From: a virus
DNA length: 64,000 nucleotides
Virus record (IMG/VR): IMGVR_UViG_3300005468_000016
Coordinates: 1-64,000 of that record
Strand: one strand, 5' to 3'
Below are positions 1 to 61,669 of this stretch, piece after piece. The position numbers and the translations under genes were made by a program. Below the pieces are notes generated by a model, which searched no databases, had not been told where the DNA came from, and worked only from the letters and a program-made list of their open reading frames with translations. Numbering within the stretch: the first letter of the stretch is position 1; each line of letters begins with the position of its first letter.

Positions 1-240
1 CACCAGGCTGGCACCATCCAGGCGGGCACCATCCAGGCGGGCACGCACCAGGCTGGCACCATCCAGGCTGGCACCATCCAGGCTGGCACCATCCAGGCGG
101 GCACCATCCAGGCGGGCATAGGCAAGATTCACACCTTGCTTCACGGCCAGTTCGACCGCCTCTTTTACGGAATCCGCCGCCGCCTCAAAGAGCACGGCTT
201 GCGTCAACCAACTAACGATCTGGATGGTCTTTTTATCCAC
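1..240 (-). CDS. Pentapeptide-repeat protein (3' end outside window)
   Basis: Starts with GTG at 240, preceded by AGGAGAG. About 40 residues of ordinary sequence (VDKKTIQIVSWLTQAV...) are followed by perfect five-residue units of the A(R/S)LDG type that run off the left edge. Pentapeptide-repeat proteins fold as a right-handed quadrilateral beta-helix; some mimic DNA and bind gyrase, but most have no known role. The units are also near-identical at DNA level, indicating recent repeat expansion. It is the last visible gene of the leftward early operon. Function in this phage is unknown. Confidence 0.85.
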   Translation of the reverse strand, partial: MDKKTIQIVSWLTQAVLFEAAADSVKEAVELAVKQGVNLAYARLDGARLDGASLDGASLDGASLVRARLDGARLDGASLV

Positions 241-8857: not shown

Positions 8858-9028
8858 CTACCGTTGAGGTTGAACTACCTGATCCTGCTTATCGCGGACC
8901 ATGCGCCAAGCCTGCGCCACGATCCACCCCGGCGCGCGATCGTTCTTTAGCGCCAAATTCCTGATCTCGTCGGCGATCTGCGGGGGGACGTAGATTTGCA
9001 TCTTCGTCGTGGTCTTCGGCTTGGCCAT
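8858..9028 (-). CDS. Ribbon-helix-helix regulator
   Basis: 56 residues: MAKPKTTTKMQIYVPPQIADEIRNLAL then NDRAPGWIVAQAWRMV. The KMQIYVPP strand plus two helices is the ribbon-helix-helix fold. Start at 9028 has AGAGG 8 nt upstream. A perfect 16-bp palindrome lies upstream at 9062-9077 over the likely -35, consistent with autoregulation. Confidence 0.7.
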   Translation of the reverse strand: MAKPKTTTKMQIYVPPQIADEIRNLALKNDRAPGWIVAQAWRMVRDKQDQVVQPQR

Positions 9029-9121: not shown

Positions 9122-9385
9122 TTAGGATGGTGGGGTGGAATTGGTCGGGTGAACCGTCTCGACGCGCTTAAACCCAAGCGCCCGCAGGAAATAGTGCCAC
9201 ATCCTGGTCGGCAAACTTCTCTCGGTCCTGGTCTGTCGTCTTAGTTCGGCTCTATGGCGTGGCGACATTCGATCGATGGAAGGTCCCGGACCATCGCACA
9301 ACCTCAGAGAGCAGGCGGAACACCAGAGCCCTTGGGGATTCAGCGGCGCATTGCACGCGATGCAATTATCACGGTTTAGATTCAT
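9122..9385 (-). CDS. Zinc-ribbon-containing small protein
   Basis: 87 residues: NCIACNAPL ... LWCSACSLRLC gives two C-x2-C pairs of a zinc ribbon, then a basic segment with PTRMWHYFLRALGF. Could be an RNA- or DNA-binding accessory protein. No family recognised. Confidence 0.55.
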   Translation of the reverse strand: MNLNRDNCIACNAPLNPQGLWCSACSLRLCDGPGPSIDRMSPRHRAELRRQTRTERSLPTRMWHYFLRALGFKRVETVHPTNSTPPS

Positions 9386-9594
9386 GACTCCGTCCCTTCG
9401 TTAGCCACCTGCCGCCCCTCCATCAGCGCCCGCCCTTTCATCTCACAGGCGTGCATTCCGTCCCTGCGATGGTCTTGGATAAAGCCGTTGATCTTCAGAC
9501 CATACGGACGCAGGCGCCACCATCGCTTGCGCTGGTTAAGCAGATCGAACGGCTTGGGATGTCCGCCGCGTGCGTCTTTGTGAGAGCGGGTCAT
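9382..9594 (-). CDS. Basic hypothetical protein
   Basis: 70 residues starting MTRSHKDARGGHPKPFD, very basic (NQRKRWWRLRPYGLK). ATGA overlap on both sides. The composition suggests nucleic-acid binding; no family recognised. Confidence 0.5.
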   Translation of the reverse strand: MTRSHKDARGGHPKPFDLLNQRKRWWRLRPYGLKINGFIQDHRRDGMHACEMKGRALMEGRQVANEGTES

Positions 9595-9998
9595 GTGCCG
9601 GGGCTCCAGTCACAAAGTACGCCGCCGGGAACCGCAGCCGTCTCGACAGCATCCATTTCGCGTTCGTAATCGGTGCTGTGCCATGCGTCCGACAGCGGCG
9701 CAATCGCGTGCGCTCGCACATCGGAACAATCAGCCAGCCACTCTGAGACATCGATCCGATCTTGCTCCGTCGCGCTGGCCCGCGGCTTATAACTGGTGAT
9801 ATAGAGTCGCGTGGCTTCGCGATTGCTACCGCCACCGCTGTCCAACTCACGCGACTCCAGCCAGATAATGAACTGCTCCAACCAGTCATCATTAACATCC
9901 GGACTCTCGATGTCGGTCCTGGCGTGGGCGGCAAAGACGGTAAAGCCCAATTCGCGAAACTCACCGACACGCTTTTTCTTGCGAAGACGTTTCTTCAC
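9591..9998 (-). CDS. YggL-like (DUF469) 50S-binding protein
   Basis: 135 residues, GTG start overlapping the upstream stop as GTGA. The N-terminus VKKRLRKKKRVGEFRELGFTV closely follows the YggL pattern (KKRLRKK..GEF.ELGF), a small protein reported to associate with the 50S subunit in Proteobacteria. The middle (DDWLEQFIIWLESREL) also fits. The C-terminal ~45 residues (SEWLADCSDV ...) appear to be an addition. It forms an overlapping set with the two nucleotidyltransferases upstream. Confidence 0.72.
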   Translation of the reverse strand: MKKRLRKKKRVGEFRELGFTVFAAHARTDIESPDVNDDWLEQFIIWLESRELDSGGGSNREATRLYITSYKPRASATEQDRIDVSEWLADCSDVRAHAIAPLSDAWHSTDYEREMDAVETAAVPGGVLCDWSPGT

Positions 9999-11074
9999 GA
10001 CCGCACCGCCAGCGACTCGGCGATCAGGTCCATGCACAGTTCATTGATGGCCTTGCGATCGGGCGCATGCGGAAGCGTCGAGGTCTTGTAAAGCTCATCC
10101 ATCCGTGCATCCTGTTCCTTGGCCCAGCCGATCAGGCGCTCGTAAGACCATGCCCCGCCGCGAATCGCGAGCAGTTCCTGCGCATTCGGCCGGCGCACAT
10201 GGACCTCGCCCGTAGTTAGGATCTCCTCGCACATCTGCATGAGACGAACGAGGTGCATCCCGTGTTTCGTGTCATAGCCATGCTGGCGCTCAAGTTCCGC
10301 CCTGGCCTCATTGCGCCCGCTCTGCCACTGCCGGTAAGCGTCCCACTCGCGGCGCTTGGTGATGTAGTGCCGCTCACGGTCGAGCAGGTCGAGAAAGTTG
10401 GAATCAAGGCCCAGCACGCGCCCCGCGGCGAGCATTCTCTCATCGTCGGTCGCCGCTTTGATCTCGGTCAGGGTCTTGACGACGTTGTCGCGCATTTCGA
10501 TCTGCGCGGCGGGGTCGAGCACGTCCACGCCAAAAGTTGGTAGCGCGTTCTCCCAGGCTTCCACTTGCTTGCGCATGATCGCTTCTGCGGCGGCAAGTTG
10601 ATCCTTGGGAATCACAGTGCGCTCGGGGAGGCCGAAGTCTGCGCGGACGGGTGGCGCTTCGGGTGGATTCAGCAGCCATCGCCGATGGCTCTCGATGCGC
10701 TTCATCTGCGACATCGCGTAGCCCGAAAAAGTGAACTTGGCCTTCTTGCTCATGAACATCCGTCGGGCCGCGCGTAGTCTCTGCCCCAAGGGCGTGACCG
10801 TGATCACGTCCGCATCGTCGGTAAAGACAATCTCGATGATGTTCGGGTTGCAGTCAGCAGCGAGGGCCAGATACTTCCGGAGTTCATAGACAACGACATC
10901 TGGATCGCCCTTCTGTTCGTACTGCTCGACGCGGTTCATCCCGAGGACGCAATCGCGCGGCGGCACCATCACGCCACGAACATCGCGGTCAGAGGTGGGC
11001 GTAGCAGTCCCGTAGGCGTGGCTGCCCGCGTTCACAAGCAGGATGGTGTTGGCATCGACGGTGCTACGCTCCAT
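9995..11074 (-). CDS. DNA polymerase beta-superfamily nucleotidyltransferase (RlaP-like)
   Basis: 359 residues. NAGSHAYGTATPTSDRDVRGV holds the GS ... D-x-D nucleotidyltransferase core as found in the pfam10127 group (RNA-ligase-associated pol-beta proteins), and DVVVYELRKYLALAADCNPNIIE is the following family block. The substrate is probably an RNA or nucleotide. Start is the ATG overlapping the end of the CCA-enzyme gene by 11 nt. Its pairing with a CCA-adding enzyme suggests RNA end repair or modification (inference). Confidence 0.85.
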   Translation of the reverse strand: MERSTVDANTILLVNAGSHAYGTATPTSDRDVRGVMVPPRDCVLGMNRVEQYEQKGDPDVVVYELRKYLALAADCNPNIIEIVFTDDADVITVTPLGQRLRAARRMFMSKKAKFTFSGYAMSQMKRIESHRRWLLNPPEAPPVRADFGLPERTVIPKDQLAAAEAIMRKQVEAWENALPTFGVDVLDPAAQIEMRDNVVKTLTEIKAATDDERMLAAGRVLGLDSNFLDLLDRERHYITKRREWDAYRQWQSGRNEARAELERQHGYDTKHGMHLVRLMQMCEEILTTGEVHVRRPNAQELLAIRGGAWSYERLIGWAKEQDARMDELYKTSTLPHAPDRKAINELCMDLIAESLAVRS

Positions 11075-12281
11075 GTTCGACCTCGCTTCCAAGTGCGCGG
11101 GTTATCGCTGCCGCCCGACGAGCGCGGATGTGTAGCCCGATGTCGGGACCTACAAGGCTCTCGGGAATCTCACCGATCGCCGTCTCTCTCACGACCTTAG
11201 CGAGCGACCGCAGCAGCGCCGGGCCGTTGCTGTTCTTGGCGGGGATGCGTCCAAGTCCATCGGCTTCTGCGACATCGGCCAGCCCTTCCGCTTTCAGGAT
11301 GCCGCGATCCGCCGCGATGATGATGTCCACCTTGCGCGTGTTCCGCATTTCTGCGAACCGATGGACATTCAGGTGTTCGGCGCTGGCCAAGCAGCAGGCA
11401 CTTCGCAATTGCTTCGGCAACCCCAGACGCTCACACAGGGCCATGATGGGTTCTGTGCCCGCGTCTTCGTGGCCAAGGTGGCGCGGTAGCAGTTCGGGCG
11501 CAGTCTTGGCCTTGCCGAGATCATGCAGCAGCGCCGCGACCCGCACATTGACATCCTGGGATAGTCGCGCCGCTTCGCGCAGGACCATCAGGGTATGTGT
11601 CAGGGCATCACCTTCGCCGTGATGCTGCGGCGGTCCAGCCGGAACACCGGCAAGGTCCGCAAGTTCGCCGAAATGGATGTCAAGGTTCCAGGTGTCGCGC
11701 AGAAGTTCGATGAACCGATGCGGCTGGGCGCTGGCCATCGCCCGCAAGAACTCAACCCGTACCCGCTCTCTGGACTCCCCGGCGATCTCGTCGCGAGGCA
11801 TGTTCTTGCAGAGTTCGACGGTTTCCCCGGCTACATCGAAGCCTAACTGCGCGGCGAACCTGGCCAGTCGGTAGATGCGCAGAGGATCGTCTGAGAACGC
11901 GGCGCTCGTATGCCGAAGCATGCGGTTCGTGAGGTCCTGCGCGCCATTGAACGGGTCGTGAAGATCGCCGTTCTCATCGATCGCCATCGCGTTGATGGTC
12001 AGGTCGCGCCGAGACAGGTCTTGCTCTAGCGTTACCTCGGGTCCGAACTCGACGGAAAAGCCCTGATGTCCGCGCCCCGTCTTCGTCTCCCGGCGGGCCA
12101 GCGCGACCTCGCCAACGTCCGGCACAAGATAAACCGGAAACGCTTTGCCGACGCATTGAGCCGACGGCCAGCGCTGCATGATATCGGCCTCGGTTGCGCC
12201 CACGGCGAGGAAATCCTTATCCTTCGCCTCTCGACCGAGCAAACGATCGCGGACGGCGCCACCGACAAGGTAGAGTTTCAC
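11064..12281 (-). CDS. CCA tRNA nucleotidyltransferase with HD domain
   Basis: 405 residues from GTG at 12281 (GTGA overlap). KLYLVGGAVRDRLLGREAKDKDFL is the class II CCA-adding/poly(A) polymerase head with catalytic D-x-D; RRDLTINAMA, then DDPLRIYRLARFAAQLGF and ESRERVRVEF are the nucleotide- and tRNA-binding parts. A C-terminal HD phosphohydrolase domain shows HHGEGDALTHTL and LLHDLGK, as in the bacterial multifunctional enzyme. It adds or repairs the 3' CCA of tRNAs. Rare on phage genomes. Confidence 0.92.
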   Translation of the reverse strand: MKLYLVGGAVRDRLLGREAKDKDFLAVGATEADIMQRWPSAQCVGKAFPVYLVPDVGEVALARRETKTGRGHQGFSVEFGPEVTLEQDLSRRDLTINAMAIDENGDLHDPFNGAQDLTNRMLRHTSAAFSDDPLRIYRLARFAAQLGFDVAGETVELCKNMPRDEIAGESRERVRVEFLRAMASAQPHRFIELLRDTWNLDIHFGELADLAGVPAGPPQHHGEGDALTHTLMVLREAARLSQDVNVRVAALLHDLGKAKTAPELLPRHLGHEDAGTEPIMALCERLGLPKQLRSACCLASAEHLNVHRFAEMRNTRKVDIIIAADRGILKAEGLADVAEADGLGRIPAKNSNGPALLRSLAKVVRETAIGEIPESLVGPDIGLHIRARRAAAITRALGSEVEHGA

Positions 12282-12469
12282 GACCGCACCGCCTGCCGCT
12301 TCGGCTTCGATTCGCCGACGATCTGCGCCCTGGCGATCTTCCACGCGGTGGCAACAAGCGACGAGTAACTGCGCCCTTGCTGTAGTTTGGAGACGGCCTT
12401 GATATCTTTTTCGACATCAGGGGGAAGTCGGAGGTTCATGGTGATGTTCCCTAGTTGCTTGCGACCCAT
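12278..12469 (-). CDS. Ribbon-helix-helix regulator
   Basis: 63 residues starting MGRKQLGNITMNLRLPPDVE. The strand ITMNLRLPPDV with helices EKDIKAVSKL and SYSSLVATAWKIA is a ribbon-helix-helix domain. An 18-bp hairpin-palindrome lies 10 bp upstream of the start (12479-12496), a plausible autoregulatory operator. The stop overlaps the CCA enzyme start. Confidence 0.65.
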   Translation of the reverse strand: MGRKQLGNITMNLRLPPDVEKDIKAVSKLQQGRSYSSLVATAWKIARAQIVGESKPKRQAVRS

Positions 12470-12478
12470 GATGCACCG

Positions 12479-12496
12479 TTGCGCCATCAGGCGCAA
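12479..12496. promoter_or_regulatory. Palindrome, candidate operator
   Basis: TTGCGCC-ATCA-GGCGCAA, perfect 7-bp arms, lies between two minus-strand genes just before the ribbon-helix-helix ATG. On the minus strand the T-run precedes rather than follows the hairpin, so it is not a normal terminator for that strand. An operator role is inferred. Confidence 0.45.
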
Positions 12497-14006: not shown

Positions 14007-14356
14007 GATTGCGTCGCCACCTCTCCAGAGAACGCCCTCCTGGCCTTCATGGACTCCAGCATCGGCCGCCAGCGGTCGCCTTCATCGTCCTCGGATATGC
14101 ACTCGCTGAGCATGTTGTAGAAATTGTCCGGCGTCGGTGACATGCCATCGTGAGCGTCGGCAAACTCGGCCCGATCTTTCTCGCAGGCCAAGCAGAGACG
14201 GTTTGATGTGATGTTCCCGTCGTATTTCGAGAAGTGCTTGATATAGCGTTCGCCGGGTTTGATCTCACCATCGCACGATGAGCAGAACTTCCGGGTGCGC
14301 GCCGTGTGCTCGGTTTCGCTCCAAATCTCTGCGTATTCTAGATCGATGTAGCACAT
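14003..14356 (-). CDS. Zinc-ribbon hypothetical protein
   Basis: 117 residues. RKFCSSCDGEIKPGERY ... RLCLACEKD gives two C-x2-C knuckles in a ribbon, a layout common in small phage proteins. Acidic C-terminus. Overlaps the DUF2493 gene upstream by 19 nt. Function unknown. Confidence 0.62.
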   Translation of the reverse strand: MCYIDLEYAEIWSETEHTARTRKFCSSCDGEIKPGERYIKHFSKYDGNITSNRLCLACEKDRAEFADAHDGMSPTPDNFYNMLSECISEDDEGDRWRPMLESMKARRAFSGEVATQS

Positions 14357-14754
14357 GATCCGCCTCTAACCTCCCTGACTTCGATGCCGGCCGCCCGCGC
14401 GATCTTGACCATCCCCGCGGTACCAACGCCGCCCTCGAACGCGACGACCATATCGAGCACGCCCCGGAACTCGTCGAGCATCTCTTGGTTCCTGAGCATG
14501 CCGGCGCGTCGGCCAAGATTCGCCCAGTCGGCCGGACGTTGATGGGATTGAACGCCCCGAGCAAGACACCAATCGTCAGCGAGCCGGTCGGCGCCCTTCA
14601 TCTTGTTCTGATCCATGCGGTTTCGGTCCATTCCGCACGCCCCATGCACCACGACATCCGGCTTGATCTCGTCGAGAGTCCGATACACAAGCGCGCGATC
14701 GGCGAAGTCGCGACCGCCGCAGACCAGGATGGTGATGGGTTTGGTTGTGCTCAT
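14338..14754 (-). CDS. DUF2493 / SLOG-like nucleotide-binding protein
   Basis: 138 residues. ITILVCGGRDFADRALVY near the N-terminus, VVVHGACGMD and GADRLADDW in the middle and MVVAFEGGVGTAGMV are the DUF2493 (YspA-like) motifs, a Rossmann fold related to SLOG domains that bind nucleotides or their derivatives. Frequent on phages; role unknown. An inserted segment (RNRMDQNKMK) lengthens the loop after the GAC motif. Confidence 0.78.
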   Translation of the reverse strand: MSTTKPITILVCGGRDFADRALVYRTLDEIKPDVVVHGACGMDRNRMDQNKMKGADRLADDWCLARGVQSHQRPADWANLGRRAGMLRNQEMLDEFRGVLDMVVAFEGGVGTAGMVKIARAAGIEVREVRGGSCATSI

Positions 14755-18799: not shown

Positions 18800-19317
18800 A
18801 TGTCACCTCGGATCCGGACAAGAGAGATAAGGTTCGCCGTGAGTTCGTCGCGCATCCGGTCCTCCTCTTCCCCGAAAGCATGGATGTATTCTTCATATGT
18901 CGCATACGCCGTCTCGACGATCCCGCGAGAGGTTAGGTATCCCTCTTCGTCTTTGTAATATGGCAGATAGACCGTATTCCACCATTCATAAAGGCGATTG
19001 AGTTCGATCGCGAAAATGGTCTGCCTGCGCATGGACCGCTTATCGAAAGCCTGCGGATCTCCGGACTCGTCGCATTCAGCGTCAGTATACTTGTCCGCGC
19101 CCTCGAAATAGTTGGCCTTGATGCCGTCCTCTTTCTCGACGAAATCACATAGGACCTGAAACATAACATGCGGCAGAAGCTGACAACGGTCTACCCAGGT
19201 CGGCGGCAGATGCTTGGCCTTGACGACGTTGTAGCGATGCCACACGAGACAGCGGAGATAGTACCAGCCGTCGGTGATGCGCCGCCAGAGACGGGAGAGA
19301 CTCGGTACTGCGCTCAC
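18790..19317 (-). CDS. Hypothetical protein
   Basis: 175 residues, GTG start overlapping the PP2C stop as GTGA. WRRITDGWYYLRCLVWHRYNVVK ... LPPTWVDRCQLLPHVMF and RLYEWWNTVYLPY are features I associate with phage hypothetical proteins of this size, but I cannot name a family. Acidic C-terminal half. Confidence 0.62.
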   Translation of the reverse strand: MSAVPSLSRLWRRITDGWYYLRCLVWHRYNVVKAKHLPPTWVDRCQLLPHVMFQVLCDFVEKEDGIKANYFEGADKYTDAECDESGDPQAFDKRSMRRQTIFAIELNRLYEWWNTVYLPYYKDEEGYLTSRGIVETAYATYEEYIHAFGEEEDRMRDELTANLISLVRIRGDMCT

Positions 19318-19967
19318 GATCCAACCTCCACGACAATCACGGTGATGTTGTCCTTCCCGCCCCGCTCATTGCACAACGCCACGAGACATTCCGCGGCATC
19401 GGGTCGGAGCGTCGGCTCTGACAGGAACGCGGTCAGGGTCTCCGATCGCTTCAGGTCGAAGTGCCGCGCCAGTCCATCGCTCGCCAACAAGAAGCGGTCG
19501 CCAGGTCGTGCGCTGGTTTTTGACGTGCAAGCCTCGAACGCCTGCCCGATGCCGCAGTAGTTGGTGAGACCGTACGGGCATTCATGGTGCGGCGCGATCA
19601 CGTCCACTTCGCCGCCACGGAACCGAATCAGGTCCGAGTCACCCGCAGCGCCCCACTCCGCCACCCCTCCCTGAATTCGCAACGCAACGATCGTTGACCC
19701 CGGCGCCAGTTGATTGAAGCGAGACGGGCCAGCGAGCGCGATCACGGCCTCGTTTGATTTCGTCAGCGCGTCCGCGAATGATGCGCCCGCACGAATCGCA
19801 TCCACAAATGAATCGAGCGCGGTCTGTGCCGCCAACTCCCCCTCCGCATGTCCGCCCATGCCATCGGCCACGACATAGAGACCGAGCGTGTCATCGGCAA
19901 AGAAGCGATCTTCGTTCGCCTGCCGCCGCATGCCGACGTGGGAGAAGGTGGAGGATGTGGGGGTCAT
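19314..19967 (-). CDS. PP2C-family protein serine/threonine phosphatase
   Basis: 217 residues, a compact PP2C. Motifs in order: HVGMRRQANEDRFF (metal-binding Glu-Asp), LYVVADGMGGHAEGE (D-G-M-G-G), GAAGDSDLIRF, LLASDGLARH (D-G) and GGKDNITVIVVEV (D-N). These place the aspartates that hold two Mn/Mg ions. It would dephosphorylate Ser/Thr residues in the cytoplasm. It is unusual on a phage and lies in the first genes behind the repressor, so it is probably made early. Confidence 0.92.
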   Translation of the reverse strand: MTPTSSTFSHVGMRRQANEDRFFADDTLGLYVVADGMGGHAEGELAAQTALDSFVDAIRAGASFADALTKSNEAVIALAGPSRFNQLAPGSTIVALRIQGGVAEWGAAGDSDLIRFRGGEVDVIAPHHECPYGLTNYCGIGQAFEACTSKTSARPGDRFLLASDGLARHFDLKRSETLTAFLSEPTLRPDAAECLVALCNERGGKDNITVIVVEVGS

Positions 19968-60682: not shown

Positions 60683-61669
60683 TCAAACCACAGCCCCCGC
60701 CCTGGCCTTCCCCTTCATGGGCTTGAGGGTCAGCCGCCGCCCTTCCATCTTGCCCAGTCCGCCCACGGTACGCTCGCCATCCGTGACCTTGCGGGTGTTG
60801 TACTTGTAGTCAAGTTCGGCCATATAGAGGCTCAGGTGCTTGCGGCCGACGTGATGGTGGGTGCCGTCCATGCTGCGCTTGCTGTTGCCGAAGAACCCTT
60901 CGGCGGTGTTCGTGGTCGCCAAGCGGCCAGTTTCGAGGTCGTGCCGCGCGTACTCTTCTTCCGAGTGGTTGACGGTCAGGTGCGACTTGAAGCGCTTGCC
61001 CGGTTCGTCGTAGATGGGGCTCTCGTCGGTGTTCAGGTGCGCCTTCTTCGATACGTGCGTCACCAGAACAGCGTTTACTTCGGCGCTGCTCACGCGATCG
61101 GCGCCGATGACTTGCGAGCGGACGTTGCCACCGCGCTCTACCACGCTCACCACGGCGGTCTTGTTGCCGACGTAGCCACGGCCCTTGCCGCGAGCCTTGC
61201 CGCCCACGTACATCTCGTCGCACTCCACTTCGCCCTTCAGCTTGGCCGGTCCCAGCTCGGCCATGGTGAAGCGGATGCGGTGGCACATGTGCCATGCGCT
61301 GCGGTAGCTGCCGATCTCCAACATGCGCTGAATCTGGAGGGCGCTCACCTGCGTTTTGGCAGAGGACAGGAGGTAGTAGGCAATCAGCCACTTGTTGAGC
61401 GGGATATGGGAGTCCTCGAAAATCGTTCCCACGGTCACGCTGAACTGCTTGCGGCAAGTCGGGATGTTGCACTGGTACAGACCTGCACGGTGCGCCTTCC
61501 CTTCCAGTTTGGTCGCATCGTTGATCGCGCCGCACTGCGCGCACACGACACCATCCGGCCAGCGGATCTCCTCTAGGAGTGCGCGGGCGGCTTCCTCGGT
61601 AGAGAACCGCTTCATGAGCGTGATCAGGGTGAGGTCAGCGGCGGCGGGGTGGGTTTTCGTGCTCGACAT
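60683..61669 (-). CDS. IS1595-family (ISXO2-like) transposase
   Basis: 328 residues, full length. N-terminal zinc ribbon: VVCAQCGAINDAT ... LYQCNIPTCRKQFSVTVGTIFEDSHIPLNKW. Catalytic core: EVECDEMYVGGK, HLNTDESPIY, and NTAEGFFGNSKRSMDGTHHHVGRKHLSLYMAELDYKYN, the DDE/DDN-type ISXO2-like pattern. Starts 24 bp inside the right inverted repeat. Appears intact. Confidence 0.93.
   Translation of the reverse strand: MSSTKTHPAAADLTLITLMKRFSTEEAARALLEEIRWPDGVVCAQCGAINDATKLEGKAHRAGLYQCNIPTCRKQFSVTVGTIFEDSHIPLNKWLIAYYLLSSAKTQVSALQIQRMLEIGSYRSAWHMCHRIRFTMAELGPAKLKGEVECDEMYVGGKARGKGRGYVGNKTAVVSVVERGGNVRSQVIGADRVSSAEVNAVLVTHVSKKAHLNTDESPIYDEPGKRFKSHLTVNHSEEEYARHDLETGRLATTNTAEGFFGNSKRSMDGTHHHVGRKHLSLYMAELDYKYNTRKVTDGERTVGGLGKMEGRRLTLKPMKGKARAGAVV

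Follow-up and report, generated by a model that had tools for sequence, protein, structure and literature searches.

Phages have repeatedly acquired genes for a CCA-adding enzyme and for the nucleotidyltransferase RlaP as neighbours, it appears on several independent occasions and in many cases without any RNA ligase that we could see. In the phage studied here the two overlap each other and a gene of the ribosome-associated YggL family in a single operon. The 64,000-nt stretch that was analysed (the window) comes from an IMG/VR virus record of 92,075 bases.

The operon and its phage

All genes of the operon lie on the minus strand. The first (11064–12281; 405 aa, GTG start) encodes a CCA-adding tRNA nucleotidyltransferase with RNA-binding and HD domains, the second (9995–11074; 359 aa, ATG start) RlaP of the pol-beta superfamily, and the third (9591–9998; 135 aa, GTG start) a YggL-family protein. 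CCA and RlaP overlap by 11 bp, RlaP and YggL by 4 bp (GTGA). The chain of overlaps extends upstream to a small minus-strand ORF of uncertain start codon (12278–12496), which shares 4 bp with the CCA start. Downstream it extends to a 70-aa minus-strand ORF of no family (9382–9594), sharing 4 bp with the YggL stop, and to an 87-aa ORF (9122–9385, minus strand), which overlaps the 70-aa ORF by 4 bp, has a CxxC...CxxC zinc-ribbon-like motif and gave no match in a Pfam search. The unit thus comprises about six genes. Codon scores were clear for CCA (69) and RlaP (74) and lower for the short YggL gene (17). These results confirm the original prediction of three translationally coupled genes at 9591–12281, the coordinates of which were exact, and our assignments, each to a family that works on tRNA or the ribosome, agree with its view of their biology. 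Two small proteins flanking the operon (8858–9028 and 12278–12496) gave weak TIGR04563 matches, that of the latter (E = 5e-4) being under the curated cut-off. A reading of the locus as a defence system was discarded, PADLOC models giving only a weak Cas3-HD match via the HD domain.

The predicted 11064–12281 product is a class II CCA-adding enzyme of the bacterial HD type. It combines PF01743 and PF12627 with a C-terminal HD domain that scores 36 bits on PF01966 (cut-off 22) and has the HD metal ligands (HDLGK at residue 253). The class II head-domain motifs GGxxR, DxD, RRDxxxN and (E/D)DxxR are all present, and the catalytic motifs LVGGAVRD, D21-K-D23, RRDLTINA, DDPLRxxRxxRF and HDLGK are intact. 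In the NCBIfam ranking CCA enzymes scored best and PcnB far weaker, and a regular-expression test for a poly(A)-polymerase signature was negative. The best NCBIfam model was PRK10885 (371 bits), and phrog_2244 matched with 346 bits. The protein resembles E. coli Cca (PRK10885) in the order of head, RNA-binding and HD domains and matches it over the full length, but it is phage-encoded and its score falls under the equivalog cut-off of 451 bits. Homologue alignments begin at the GTG start codon, while the ORF itself opens further upstream. The original prediction had called HD-type CCA enzymes rare on phages; this does not hold, as relatives occur in 481 of 50,697 named phage records and in at least 565 IMG/VR stretches. 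CCA-adding enzymes are also among the genes of huge phages (PMC7162821).

From its matches to PF10127 (94.5 bits against a cut-off of 23) and phrog_388 (233 bits), we assign the predicted 9995–11074 product to RlaP, a pol-beta nucleotidyltransferase. Its GS...SDxD motif is intact, and G17, S18, D29 and D31 are invariant across 52 aligned sequences. The AlphaFold model is confident (pLDDT 90.6), but the nearest solved folds, the HalB defence polymerase and kanamycin nucleotidyltransferase, are weak matches with low TM-scores, so the substrate is not readable from the structure; a search against PDB sequences gave no match. RlaP relatives were found in 794 of the 50,697 phage records and in at least 205 IMG/VR stretches. 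The T4-like NrdC.11 protein of phage RB43 is a distant relative.

The record contains genes for a terminase, a portal, a head protein, a tail sheath, a baseplate protein and a DnaB helicase, and thus belongs to a tailed phage, a myovirus. A second IMG/VR contig, from another sample, is 99.997% identical across 37 kb that include the locus, which is thus not a one-off assembly error. Tandem repeats of 15 bp in a pentapeptide-repeat gene lie at both ends of the record (window 1–118 and record 91852–92075), and the second contig also starts within this repeat. This makes it probable that the record is near complete, and the end repeats suggest a circular or permuted genome. Synteny with other phages was confined to CCA, RlaP and a few scattered other genes. 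The phage genome also contains an IS1595-family transposase with a zinc ribbon (window 60683–61669), less than 60% identical to the plasmid copies with which it was compared for host assignment. Genes for a YAcAr SLOG protein, a PP2C-type phosphatase and a RyR-domain protein (window 14338–14754 and 19314–19967; record 87756–88148) are unusual at a phage genome size of 92 kb.

Recurrence of the CCA-RlaP pair

A CCA gene lies on the same strand as RlaP and at most 4 kb away in 17 of 74 non-redundant RlaP loci, a proportion that is not a frequency, as some of the loci were reached via the CCA search. Both gene orders occur among the 17, and the two open frames overlap in five pairs (the window, L073, L083, L167 and L207). 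On the RlaP tree, adjacency to CCA requires about six changes, compared with 15.5 when labels were shuffled, and at least three of them are forced by supported branches; the placement of the long branches L185, L187 and L207 is unsure. RlaP of the window groups with relatives that have no neighbouring CCA gene, which suggests that its CCA-RlaP arrangement is a separate pairing event.

The original prediction had regarded the pairing of the two enzymes as undescribed. Many phages have both, however, and the genes are neighbours in Seunavirus, in Vibrio phages and in other lineages. In the Seunavirus and Vibrio phage neighbourhoods (PVP-SE1 gp159-gp162-gp166, 496E54-1), as in the window, CCA lies upstream of RlaP on one strand, within 0.5–2.5 kb, but other genes separate the two and YggL is lacking; their RlaP is about 37% identical to that of the window and belongs to a different tree branch. 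Both enzymes were already listed as phage RNA repair by Iyer et al. 2021 (PMC7824862), whose jumbo-phage set comprises RlaP, the CCA enzyme, Rnl1/Rnl2, RtcB, PNK-HAD, Thg1 and PTH2. The window shares with that set both nucleotidyltransferases, the same families and the same predicted role; it differs in belonging to a 92 kb phage with no tRNAs and no RNA ligase or PNK found, in which the genes form one overlapping operon with YggL attached. The CCA-RlaP pair has a wide distribution in phages, and its role in repair had been predicted before. The count of repeated pairings, the compact operon, the repeats that bracket the pair, a phage YggL clade and a ligase-free reading at tRNA 3′ ends are new.

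CCA/RlaP neighbourhoods also contain RNA ligase, PNK, Thg1, RtcB or peptidyl-tRNA hydrolase genes. In many phages a hydrolase-like gene flanks the CCA and RlaP genes or separates them (L020:6625–7113, also L023, L027, L159, L163, L169, L177 and L185); it is likely a third member of the module that is missing in the window.

The complete CCA-RlaP-YggL operon was found only in this virus, on its two contigs. The three genes are present together, but scattered, in the 459 kb phage G002, and no operon was found elsewhere, which for the operon comes close to the outcome that the original prediction had named as its refutation, namely that no other occurrence of the three genes together would turn up.

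YggL and the bracketing repeats

The product of 9591–9998 is assigned to the YggL family on a PF04320 match of 68 bits (cut-off 27) that covers profile positions 1–102 of 102. Its N-terminus KKRLRKKKRVGEF recurs in E. coli YggL as well as in other phage proteins. E. coli YggL (DUF469, a putative ribosome assembly factor) shares the Pfam family and the basic RRLRKK-EFQELGF N-terminus, but the YggL of the window is about 27% identical to it, has a longer C-terminus and belongs to a separate phage clade. YggL co-sediments with the 50S subunit, whose levels change when YggL is lost (PMC8058203). We found YggL in four viruses only: this one, G002, LR745208, which has YggL and RlaP but no CCA, and L053, a 298 kb contig. 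A tblastn search of named phage records for YggL gave nothing, while a profile search did find it in LR745208. The four phage sequences form one group against 16 cellular ones (support 97/88), in a tree of a short protein with long branches.

RNA-repair or end-processing genes lie near all four phage YggL genes. The other three are found about 5 kb from Rnl1, about 6 kb from Rnl2 and a synthetase-like gene, and, in LR745208 (L051:1306–3135), adjoining calcineurin-like phosphoesterase and Macro-domain genes. By a rough, post hoc estimate, a random gene would be equally near a known ligase, RlaP or CCA gene in about 10–17% of cases per large genome (three genomes), or about 0.2% jointly. A cellular precursor operon was considered and rejected: none of 80 cellular loci had RlaP, CCA, a ligase or PNK within 6 kb of YggL. 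The yggL-trmB overlap of E. coli is not general among these mostly Pseudomonas loci.

The position of YggL in the operon may nevertheless be incidental. Two direct repeats, identical in 19 of 20 bp and spaced 2283 bp apart, bracket CCA-RlaP, and their positions coincide exactly with two GTGA stop/start junctions: one at the RlaP stop and YggL start (9994–10013), the other at the stop of the upstream ORF and the CCA start (12277–12296). Their core 16-mer occurs at these two places and nowhere else in the 92 kb. The proteins that precede the two junctions are unrelated, and both end in AVRS. The simplest reading of this arrangement is that recombination at short homology brought in a CCA-RlaP cassette and placed it between the upstream gene and YggL. 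This counts against an old functional bond between YggL and the pair in this virus. The repeats, and the restriction of the triple operon to this virus, thus argue that CCA-RlaP alone could be the functional unit, inserted between the upstream small gene and YggL, with YggL a bystander. Against this stands the single clade of phage YggL, all of whose members are near RNA-repair or end-processing genes. We regard the bystander explanation, which concerns YggL only and is compatible with either of the repair readings below, as a serious possibility of somewhat less than even likelihood. A bolder proposal is that a distinct YggL subfamily of large phages works with RNA-repair nucleotidyltransferases and links the rescue of damaged tRNA with that of 50S subunits, or with their capture, the operon of the window being its most compact form; this seems doubtful to us. 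The link of YggL to the CCA-RlaP pair, as read from the sequences, is new; its functional role is putative. A shorter motif, GCGGTCGTGA, is repeated close to or at further gene junctions of the phage (window 13004–13019 and 34515–34530, record 74643) and is possibly a translation-coupling signal or a recombination seam.

Possible roles in tRNA repair

No tRNA gene was detected in the 92 kb record by ARAGORN and Rfam, nor any Rfam RNA, which disfavours the suggestion that the operon matures odd tRNAs of the phage itself. The association with RNA ligases, a trait of the genomic context of RlaP and not of its sequence, was not found either: the record gave no match to PF09414, PF09511 or RtcB, nor to PNK and Thg1 profiles built from single sequences. 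Among nine other records in which CCA and RlaP are neighbours, some of them fragments, eight had no match to the ATP-grasp RNA ligase models and one had a ligase; one PF09511 search gave no control match, yet the model matched G002. This absence in eight of nine favours work at 3′ ends over the rejoining of cut tRNAs. One of these neighbour records (L083) has RtcB.

The reading that we prefer, though with slightly less than even confidence, is a ligase-free module that, in the infected cell, would rebuild the 3′ ends of host tRNAs, together with a YggL that would act on 50S subunits; we infer its substrates, the order of its steps, defence as a source of damage and the whole role of YggL. During infection, the 3′ ends of host tRNAs would be lost or damaged by nuclease effectors of abortive defence or by ordinary RNase trimming in a declining host. 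The CCA enzyme would use its HD domain to remove 2′,3′-cyclic or 3′-phosphate ends, in keeping with the action of this domain on 2′,3′-cyclic phosphates in bacterial CCA enzymes (PMC10673834). RlaP would then restore missing acceptor-end or other 3′ nucleotides and the CCA head domain would complete CCA, so that the repaired tRNAs could still be charged for phage translation. The phage-type YggL may bind 50S and keep large subunits assembled or usable. Against the 3′-end reading, RlaP owes its name to the company of RNA ligases, and this speaks for a step ahead of ligation; in the literature covered, moreover, no substrate has been demonstrated for any phage RlaP. There may also be a divergent or host ligase.

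The original prediction had proposed repair of nuclease-damaged tRNAs. This agrees with the published prediction for RlaP and CCA (PMC7824862), although no ligase for cut anticodons was found. In anticodon repair proper, RlaP would restore a nucleotide lost at the cleaved loop and the CCA enzyme, through its HD domain, would heal the 3′ phosphate. The break would then be sealed by a ligase, either one from the host (RtcB or another) or an unrecognised one of the phage. That publication predicts such a role for RlaP, PNK and Rnl genes lie within 10 kb of many RlaP loci, and RtcB occurs together with RlaP and CCA in L083 and L187. Without a PF09414, PF09511, RtcB or PNK-like match in the 92 kb record, however, the host would have to supply the ligase, and we consider anticodon repair unlikely here. 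Less probable still is general upkeep, in which the genes would replace tRNA and ribosome functions lost at host shutdown, with no link to defence. The CCA enzymes, ribosomal proteins and translation factors of huge phages are thought to redirect translation (PMC7162821), and YggL as a putative ribosome assembly factor would fit such a role, but RlaP recurs alongside repair enzymes. To our knowledge, RlaP has no housekeeping role.

The ligase-poor CCA-RlaP pairings offer a testable case that RlaP can act at tRNA 3′ ends and is not confined to a step ahead of ligation. With YggL, the phage translation toolkit gains a ribosome-assembly family for which our literature search found no earlier description in phages among titles and abstracts.
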